This document shows, in pieces, positions 9,323 to 18,239 of a stretch of DNA of 64,000 nt. The stretch is from positions 55,671 to 119,670 of the forward strand of contig PXQV01000012.1 of the NCBI GenBank assembly GCA_003021175.1, in the 5' to 3' direction. This DNA is from Halobacteriales archaeon QH_7_66_36 (GTDB taxonomy: Archaea > Halobacteriota > Halobacteria > Halobacteriales > Haloarculaceae). Numbering within the stretch: position 1 is the stretch's first letter; every line of letters starts with the position of its first letter. A program made the position numbers and the translations under genes. A model generated the notes under the pieces. It was not told where the DNA came from. It saw only the letters and a program-made list of their open reading frames with translations, and ran no database searches.

Positions 9323-9877
9323 GTGTCTCGCGTGGTCGCCGTCGCGCTGTGCCTGCTACTGGCGGGGTGTGGTACCGCGCCGAGTACCGGGAGCGACGAC
9401 CGTCCCACCGCGACGACGGTCACGCCAGCGCCGGTGCCCGACCAGCCGACGGCCGCGACCGACGCGGTTTCGCCGGCGGTCGCCCTCGCCGCCGAGCCGA
9501 CCTGTGAGCGCCCGCCCGAGCGGGTCGTGGCGATACAGCTCGCGGCGCTGCGCGCCGAGAACCGCACGGCCGGCGTCGAGACGGCGTGGCGGTTCACCGC
9601 GCCGGCGAGTCGGAAGCGCGTGGGCTCGCTATCGACGTTTCGCGACCTATTGGAGACCGCCTACGGCGAACTGCTGAACGCGACCGAGGTCGCCTACGGG
9701 CCGGTGATCGTGATCGACGACGAGGCACAGCGGGAGGTCGAGGCCCGCTCGGCAGACGGCGACGGCACGGTGTTCCGGTGGGTGCTCGAACGACAGGTGG
9801 GCGGCCGCTACGACGGCTGTTGGATGACGACGCGGATCACGAGAGAGCGCGACAGAGAAGCGGGACCGAATCGGTGA
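9323..9877 (+). CDS. Predicted lipoprotein, unknown function
   Basis: With a GTG start at 9323 the 184-aa protein begins MSRVVAVALCLLLAGCG, a lipoprotein signal whose lipobox Cys is residue 16. A Thr/Pro-rich linker follows and then a globular domain (FTAPASRKRVGSLSTFRDLL ... GRYDGCWMT) that resembles the DUF4864 type. Earlier TTG/GTG codons at 9296 and 9302 would place charged residues before the signal. It probably faces outside on the membrane surface. Confidence 0.65.
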   Translation: MSRVVAVALCLLLAGCGTAPSTGSDDRPTATTVTPAPVPDQPTAATDAVSPAVALAAEPTCERPPERVVAIQLAALRAENRTAGVETAWRFTAPASRKRVGSLSTFRDLLETAYGELLNATEVAYGPVIVIDDEAQREVEARSADGDGTVFRWVLERQVGGRYDGCWMTTRITRERDREAGPNR

Positions 9878-11976: not shown

Positions 11977-12948
11977 ATGAGCGAGTTTCCCGACTACCTG
12001 AACGTCGACTACACCGACGGCGAGGGTGAATCGCCCGACGAGTATCCGAGCATCGAACACAAGATCGAGAAGGCGCTGGAGGTCGTCGAGACCGGCCTGC
12101 GCGAGTACGAGAACCCGGCCGTCATGTGGACCGGCGGGAAGGACTCGACGCTCACCCTCTACTTCGTGAAGGAGGTCGTCGAGCAGTACGACGAACTGGA
12201 GATGCCGGCCACGGTGTTCATCGACCACTTCCAGCACTTCGACGAACTCATCGAGTTCGCGGAGCGGTGGGCCGACCGCTGGGACGTGGAACTCATCTAC
12301 GCCCGCAACGACGATGTCGGCAGCTACGTCGACGAGCACGGGCTGGAGCCCGGCGACGACATCCCCGTCGAGGACCTCTCCGAGCACAACCGACACCACA
12401 TCCGGAACATCCTCGAATACGAGGAGGACACGTTCCCGTTCCTGCTCGACACCTACGTCGGCAACCACCTCCTGAAGACGGTCGCGCTCAACGACACCCT
12501 CGAATCCGAGAACATCGACGGCATCATCTCGGGCATCCGCTGGGACGAGCAGGAGGCTCGCGCCGACGAGACGTTCTTCTCGCCGCGCCACGACCCGGAC
12601 ATCTACCCGCCCCACGACCGGGTCCAGCCCATCCTCCAGTTCATGGAGGCGGACGTGTGGGACGCGTTCTGGTACTTCGTCGTCCCGGAGACGGTCGACG
12701 CGTACCCGGACGACGGCTACGTCCCGCAGGGCTTCGACGACCTGCCGAACGACCTCACCCACGAGGACATCCCGGTGTCGCCGAAGTACTTCGCCGGCTT
12801 CCGGTCGCTCGGCAGCGAGATCTCGACCGACAAGTCCGCCGAGGAGCCCGCGTGGCTCCAGGACATGGCGAACACGACCGAGCGCGCCGGCCGCGCCCAG
12901 GACAAGGAGGACCTGATGGAGCGGCTGCGCGACCTCGGCTATATGTAA
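11977..12948 (+). CDS. PAPS-reductase-family PP-loop protein
   Basis: A 323-aa protein of the phosphoadenosine phosphosulfate reductase superfamily with an ATP pyrophosphatase loop MWTGGKDSTLT (residues 50-60), HFQHFDELIEF, and GIRWDEQEAR. It binds an adenylated substrate, but I see no C-terminal Cys of true PAPS reductases, so a sulfotransfer or nucleotidyl-transfer role is equally possible. The start ATG follows an AT-rich stretch (11946-11976). Confidence 0.8.
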   Translation: MSEFPDYLNVDYTDGEGESPDEYPSIEHKIEKALEVVETGLREYENPAVMWTGGKDSTLTLYFVKEVVEQYDELEMPATVFIDHFQHFDELIEFAERWADRWDVELIYARNDDVGSYVDEHGLEPGDDIPVEDLSEHNRHHIRNILEYEEDTFPFLLDTYVGNHLLKTVALNDTLESENIDGIISGIRWDEQEARADETFFSPRHDPDIYPPHDRVQPILQFMEADVWDAFWYFVVPETVDAYPDDGYVPQGFDDLPNDLTHEDIPVSPKYFAGFRSLGSEISTDKSAEEPAWLQDMANTTERAGRAQDKEDLMERLRDLGYM

Positions 12949-16023: not shown

Positions 16024-16524
16024 ATGTACGTCGCAGTCGGAAGCGACAACCCGGTGAAGCACGACGCCGTCGCGGAGGCGCTACCGGAAGCGCGAGTCGA
16101 GACAGAACCGGTCGACTCGGGCGTCGGCGAACAGCCGTACGGACTCGCAGAGACCATCGAAGGCGCAGAGACGCGGGCCGAGCGCGCGTTGCCCGGCTAC
16201 GACCTCGCGGTCGGCATCGAGGGCGGCGTGGCGCGACTCCCCGACGCCGAAGGGCTCTGGCTCGTCATGTGGGCCGCCGCGACGGACGGCGACGAGTGGG
16301 GACGCGGCGGCGGTCCGTCGGTACGACTCCCCGAGGACATCGCGCGCCGCGTCGCGGCCGGGGCGGAACTCGGCCCGGTGATGGACGACGTGCTCAACGA
16401 GGAGGGCGTCGGTCGCGAACAGGGCGCTGCGGGCGCGCTCACCGGCGGCGTCACCGACCGAACGGAGGCACTTCGAACGGCCGTCGGCGGCGCGCTCGGG
16501 CCGTTCCTCACCGCTCACTACTGA
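16024..16524 (+). CDS. Inosine/xanthosine triphosphatase (YjjX/DUF84 family)
   Basis: Predicted house-cleaning phosphatase of 166 aa that removes non-canonical purine triphosphates. Family features: an N-terminal VAVGSDNPVKHDAV nucleotide loop, the ETIEGAETRAERAL helix, VGIEGGV with the acidic metal site, and DRTEALRTAVGGALGPF at the C-terminus. The ATG at 16024 is preferred to an upstream in-frame start because the upstream codons overlap the TATA-leader region. The 3' end overlaps that of the broken aglD by 17 bp (convergent). Confidence 0.85.
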   Translation: MYVAVGSDNPVKHDAVAEALPEARVETEPVDSGVGEQPYGLAETIEGAETRAERALPGYDLAVGIEGGVARLPDAEGLWLVMWAAATDGDEWGRGGGPSVRLPEDIARRVAAGAELGPVMDDVLNEEGVGREQGAAGALTGGVTDRTEALRTAVGGALGPFLTAHY

Positions 16525-18239
16525 CCGGGTCCTCCACATCGGCGGCCCCCTCGACGGCCTCGACGAGCGAGACGTTGAACACGAGCGTCGCCGCGACGCC
16601 GCCGACCACGGTGACGGCGTTCTTGACCGCGTGGTCGACGATGGAGACCGCCAGCGCGACAGCGGCCGTCAGCCCCGGCACCGCCGTGAGCCCGACGACG
16701 ATGAGCGTGAACGCCCCCTCGTAGAGGCCGAGACCGCCCGGCGACAGCGGCACCACCTTCGCGAGGTTGCCGACGCTGACCGCGAAGAAGAGGACGGCGA
16801 CGAGATACGGCGTCAGGCCGAAGCCGAAGGCCGCGAGTACGCCCACGGCCGCCGCCACGTCGATGCCCCACACGAGGAGGCTGGTCGCGCCGACGCGGGC
16901 GAAGGCGTCACGGTCGCCCGCGATGGCCTGTACGTCGGCGACGAACCGGCCGACGATGCCAGAGACGTAGTCGGCGTACGAGTCGTCGCTCACCGCCCGT
17001 ACCGCGCGGGCGACGAGATCCGTGTCCCGGCGCGCGCTGGCGACGATGACGGCCACGCCGCCGAGTGCGACGGCAGCGACCCCCACTGCGACGCGCAGCG
17101 CGGTCCGGGCGGCAGTTCCCGGCTGGACCGTCTCGCCGCCGACGGCGATGGTGCCGATGTCGGCGGCGATGGCCGCCGCGAGACCGTCGGTGCTACCGGT
17201 CGCGAACAGGCCGACGAGGACGCTCCCCGCGAGGACGGTGATGGCGAGCAGGTCGAACACCCGCTCGATTGCCAGCGAGGCGAAGCCGCTGGGGTACGGC
17301 ACCGAGCGTCGTGCCTTGACGACGTACGCGCGGATGGCGTCGCCGGCCCGCGCGGGGAAGACGAGGTTCCCCGTCTGCGAGATGAACACCGCGCCCGTGA
17401 GGAATCCGACCTCCCCCTCGTAGCCGAGTTCGGCGAGGATGTCGCGGTAGCGCGCGCCGCGGAGCGGCCACGAGAGCGCGTACACGAGCGCCGTCGCCGC
17501 GACGACTCGCCGGTCGGCACCCGCGATGGCATCCAGCACTGAGGCGGGGTCGAGATACACCGTCATCAGCGCGAGCGCGACGACGGCGAGCAGTGCGCCG
17601 GTCGCGAGCCCGACGCGACGGGTGGCGCGCGGCTGGACGGAGAACTCCCACCAGACGCGGAGTATCTGACTCCCCATCCCGAGCACGTCGCGCACGAGGT
17701 CGACCGTCGTGTCGCCTTTCGGCGTCCACTGGACGGGAAACTCCTTCACCCGGTAGCCCGCGCGCTGGGCGCGCACGAGCACGCAGGAGCAGTCGCACCA
17801 GTCCGTTGTAGCCCGTCGAGGCGACGCCGCGTTCCGGTTCGCGCGCCTGCTTCTTGCCGGGCATCCGACGCGATCCGGTCGCCACGTCGTACCCCTCGGT
17901 TCGGACGGACTCGACGAGCTCTTCGAGGTGTGACATGTCCGTCGCGAGATCCGTGTCGAAGTAGACGAGCGTGTCGCCGTCGCTCGCCCGGAAGGCGCGT
18001 TCGAGCGCGCCGCCGCGACCCAGTCGGTCGTCGCTGTGGAAGTGTCGCACCCGGTCGTCCTCGGCGGTGAGTCGGTCGGCGATCTCGGGGGTGCGGTCCG
18101 AACAGCCGTCCTCGGCCACGATGATCTCGAACGAGTCACAGAAGGAGGCGAGGGTGTCGAGCGTCGTCTCGACGGTGTGTTCGATGGTGTCCTCCTCGTC
18201 GTACGCCGGGAGGACGACGCTCACCTCGACCTCGGTCAT
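16508..18239 (-). pseudogene. aglD: AglD-like glycosyltransferase/flippase-domain protein, frameshifted
   Basis: AglD of Haloferax acts late in N-glycosylation, charging dolichol phosphate with a hexose. Here the GT2 domain (residues 1 to about 145: EVSVVLPAYDEEDTIEHT, VAEDGCSDRT, FDTDLATD, ATGSRRMPGKK, GYNGLVRLLLR) is in one frame. The rest (VLVRAQRAGYRVKEFPVQWTPKGD, then about eight membrane helices of the UPF0104/LPG-synthase type) is in another. The break lies at 17774-17792. About 30 residues normally found between (an HQCGFKAF ... WFWDTE stretch) are missing, so this is a deletion, not a single-base slip. As read, no full enzyme is made. Confidence 0.88.

Follow-up and report, generated by a model that had tools for sequence, protein, structure and literature searches.

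The question raised by this locus is whether a haloarchaeon has lost AglD or whether the gene was broken only in its draft genome. In the 64,000-nucleotide stretch of DNA analyzed here (the window), aglD is found on the minus strand in two pieces that lie in different reading frames. The initial annotation had described the gene as broken by a deletion at a short direct repeat, and the loss of AglD was expected to change the N-glycans of surface proteins. The source genome (G000) is haloarchaeal, is assembled in 18 contigs (2.6 Mb, 96.7% complete), and falls in a genus group with Halosegnis rubeus and the MAG QS_9_67_17. It was compared with a sister MAG (G001, read from L034), which is ~95% identical in nucleotide sequence to the window across the aglD region, and with a complete congener, G004. 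The features of the locus are as follows.

18239-17783, minus strand: GT2 (GT-A) N-terminal part of aglD, residues 1-152 (reading frame; PF00535, E = 5e-27)
17782/17783, minus strand: aglD joint, frame lost (alignments to the sister G001/L034 and the congener G004)
17792-17782 and 17781-17770, minus strand: two near-identical segments, head to tail, CTGCTCCTGCG and TGCTCGTGCGCG (direct reading)
17782-16508, minus strand: C-terminal part, comprising the end of the GT2 domain and the flippase-like membrane domain (PF03706, TIGR00374)
17193-17782, minus strand: arginine-rich out-of-frame tail, read by the GT2 frame before its stop (frame reading)

The naming of the gene as aglD was borne out. The sister protein is 61% identical over 600 amino acids to a Halobacterium salinarum protein (in L106) that, from its sequence, is taken to be VNG0318G, and a TFB gene is conserved near aglD here and near the Hbt. 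salinarum counterpart. VNG0318G replaces AglD in Haloferax volcanii (PMC4335974). The intact protein shares with H. volcanii AglD (HVO_0798) and VNG0318G a GT2 domain with DXD, DHQCGFKA, and WDTE motifs and a flippase-like membrane domain; unlike these proteins, the version in this assembly is without residues of about 153-188 and is broken in frame. Intact aglD encodes a dolichyl-phosphate hexosyltransferase of the GT2 type with a flippase-like membrane domain fused to it, predicted to add the terminal hexose to dolichol phosphate for N-glycans. The source genome also has aglB and aglJ, two genes of N-glycosylation.

The GT2 part opens with the ATG at 18239, and its match to PF00535 stops at position 126 of the 168 in the profile. 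The DXD motif is intact (DTD at residues 95-97), with D95 and D97 corresponding to D110 and D112 of H. volcanii AglD at the constant offset of 15 between the two numberings. The membrane part matches PF03706 (LPG_synthase_TM, E = 5e-37) and TIGR00374 (E = 3.5e-21), and its frame is uninterrupted from the joint to the stop at 16508. The LPG_synthase_TM/UPF0104-type domain is present, but in a frame different from that of the GT2 part. The break described in the initial annotation is therefore found in the sequence, with the two halves in different frames at 17782/17783. The joint itself contains no N and is otherwise undamaged.

Across the joint, the window has 251 nt and the sister has 358 nt; the 107 nt that are absent (35.7 codons) agree with the loss of about 30 conserved residues noted earlier. 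The same 107 nt occur in aglD of G004, and the segment is carried by the 108 homologues examined. The absent residues, about 153-188, include the invariant motifs DHQCGFKA and HWF(W)DTE. Within these, D158 and D186 are invariant in 105 of 105 aligned homologues, and both are absent in the window; three further homologues (two from Halosegnis rubeus and one from a Halorientalis MAG) keep the segment and read DHQCGFKS. At the same offset of 15, D158 and D186 correspond to D173 (structural) and D201 (catalytic base) of H. volcanii, the latter having been assigned by mutagenesis (PMC2877612). Judged by these residues, aglD as assembled could not yield an active AglD. The source genome was searched for the intact paralogue proposed as a check, and no second AglD was found elsewhere in it. 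Nor is there a copy of the missing 107 nt elsewhere in the assembly, as expected from a dropped stretch and equally from a real deletion.

Near-identical segments do meet at the joint, as had been claimed: CTGCTCCTGCG (17792-17782) abuts TGCTCGTGCG (from 17781), and the two are alike at 9 of 10 positions. They code for portions of two conserved stretches, RLLLR and VLVRA. In a control with random 107-nt excisions from related haloarchaeal DNA, a comparable near-tandem was obtained in 525 of 200,000 trials (0.26%). The near-tandem is thus uncommon, yet it is no explanation of the joint. When a deletion arises between repeats, a single copy is left. In favor of slippage or recombination at these short direct repeats are the likeness of the 10-mers and an arrangement that is rare by chance, but here both near-copies remain, and the proposed mechanism is unsupported for that reason. 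Furthermore, alignment to the sister and to G004 places the breakpoints where just 1 nt is shared, and the intervening DNA of the sister shows no apparent third copy. We consider this mechanism to be extremely improbable.

The source genome contains at least three other conserved genes with the same kind of gap.

2082-2106 of the window, plus strand: trpB joint, 82 nt absent at 2105/2106 and 12 nt more a few bases upstream, frame lost (sister alignment)
G000:C10:34779 (L137): moeA-type molybdopterin gene (NF011068), 128 nt absent relative to G004, frame change
G000:C15:109340 (L158): Hvo_1808-family surface protein gene (NF038145), 118 nt absent relative to G004, frame change

The trpB gene is single-copy in the source genome, where the family model otherwise gives weak, partial matches, and the trp genes that flank it are readable. 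The joints of the trpB, moeA-type, and Hvo_1808-family lesions share 0 nt. Together with aglD, the four gaps measure 82, 107, 118, and 128 nt, share 0-1 nt at their breakpoints, and ignore the reading frame.

Orthologues were screened for frame changes in both directions, using 800 kb of the source genome and 1.68 Mb of G004. The screen of the source genome gave eight candidates, of which four were true. The others (C10:17178, C10:124.5 kb, C10:170.4 kb, and C14:110.0 kb) are overlong or shadow open reading frames across gene boundaries and not breaks; these four artefacts were removed manually, by eye, after the candidates were known. The count leaves out an in-frame deletion at C10:155 kb, which falls in an acidic linker of low complexity. 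The reverse comparison gave a single candidate, which is the aglD of the window seen from the other side, so that breaks in G004 number zero. Frame-breaking gaps therefore occur in 4 of ~188 orthologues in the source genome versus 0 of 209 in G004 (Fisher p = 0.049, with one comparison genome), an excess that is suggestive but not strong. It gains weight from the nature of the lesions: the four gaps are alike in size, in their bare joints, and in their disregard of frame, and in real genes neither small frameshifts nor internal nonsense codons were convincingly found; the listed stops were judged by eye to be N-terminal over-extensions or antisense frames.

The source contigs also contain runs of N, 43 N at C10:55628-55670, adjoining base 1 of the window on its upstream side, and 2 N at C15:120168-120169. 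These runs show that the contigs are scaffolds, joined by estimated gap size. The contig of the sister likewise begins close to base 33 of the window. We infer that the four joints arose in the assembly rather than in the cell. Most likely the scaffolder joined two contigs without Ns across a short stretch that had stayed unassembled between their ends; if the gap at such a join had been estimated as zero, ~100 nt would have been dropped and a bare joint left behind. The same joining process would have cut the trpB, moeA-type, and Hvo_1808-family genes by 82-128 nt. Short local scaffolding errors occur in draft or metagenome assemblies (PMC5079060). The present joints resemble them in that short stretches are absent where contigs sharing no sequence meet, irrespective of gene function and frame; they differ in being known here from sequence comparison. 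It is thus probable that the organism carries an intact aglD and that the 107-nt gap is a local assembly error. Against this stand the unusual near-tandem at the aglD joint (0.26% by chance) and a Fisher test that is marginal, with one comparison genome. An assembly collapse had been named in the initial annotation as the outcome that would undo its reading. An error of assembly is now the leading explanation, but of the scaffold-join type; the repeat collapse was rejected, as the breakpoints share only 1 nt.

The chief alternative is a real, very recent 107-nt deletion by nearly homology-free end joining; with the catalytic-base segment and the frame lost, AglD would be null and the terminal hexose of the N-glycan would not be added. 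The clean joint, with neither N nor other damage, speaks for such an event, and H. volcanii mutants deleted for aglD are viable (PMC2877612). The fused protein also goes undetected in a few near-complete relatives (e.g., G023, G133, G150, and G167), and its absence may therefore be tolerated. However, the same kind of gap recurs in three further conserved genes, one of them the sole trpB; the screen gave neither small frameshifts nor convincing nonsense mutations; and both halves of aglD have stayed under purifying selection. The assembly error is accordingly judged likelier than a real recent deletion, which is possible but unlikely. The biological loss of AglD, and with it the predicted change in N-glycans, is doubtful because frame-breaking gaps of similar size hit unrelated conserved genes of the same genome, the only trpB among them. 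Were all four gaps real, the lineage would have recently acquired recurrent near-blunt deletions of ~100 nt that removed the AglD, TrpB, MoeA-type, and Hvo_1808-family proteins, which we regard as improbable. The strain would then depend on tryptophan and carry truncated N-glycans, and an unusual end-joining process would be indicated.

A further reading takes aglD as a pseudogene, old or adaptive, or as a gene divided into separate working GT2 and flippase proteins; it could draw on the GTG codons that lie in frame just past the joint in the membrane frame and on the flippase-like proteins without a GT2 part that are known in relatives. However, the GT2 fragment would be without the region of the invariant D158 and D186. 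The protein identity to the sister is 95% for the GT2 half and 98% for the membrane half, with omega values of 0.14 and 0.045, respectively, indicating strong purifying selection on both, and no second lesion was found in either half. This reading is very improbable.

If the annotation were taken at face value, it would predict a haloarchaeon without AglD, the beta subunit of tryptophan synthase, and a MoeA-type protein. Recognizing a shared class of lesion in one draft genome avoids false claims of gene loss, and the comparison offers a check for any conserved gene of a draft genome that seems short by ~100 nt.

Of 146 family genomes, almost all have a full-length AglD in a single frame. It appears to be cut by contig ends in G026, G127, and G166. 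In the near-complete genomes G023, G133, G150, and G167, the best AglD match is a flippase-like protein, ~48% identical, with no fused GT2 detected, which suggests the natural absence or replacement of the fused AglD in those lineages. Two homologues besides the one here look broken, with the change of frame near residues 404-430 in both: G031:C22:4345-6053 and G079:C1:3022025-3023796, the latter carrying one TGA as well.

Differences were also observed in the other direction. The 69 nt at 12545-12613 of the window are absent, in frame, from the sister MAG, and the breakpoints share 4 nt; the gene affected (11977-12948, 323 amino acids) looks to be of the PAPS-reductase type. A stretch at 9446-9564 of the window is also absent from the sister. 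At G000:C10:124450-124720, an intergenic short tandem repeat (about GGAGCGGTCACTGACCGCCGAATGAA) is located just upstream of an open reading frame resembling peptidyl-tRNA hydrolase 2.
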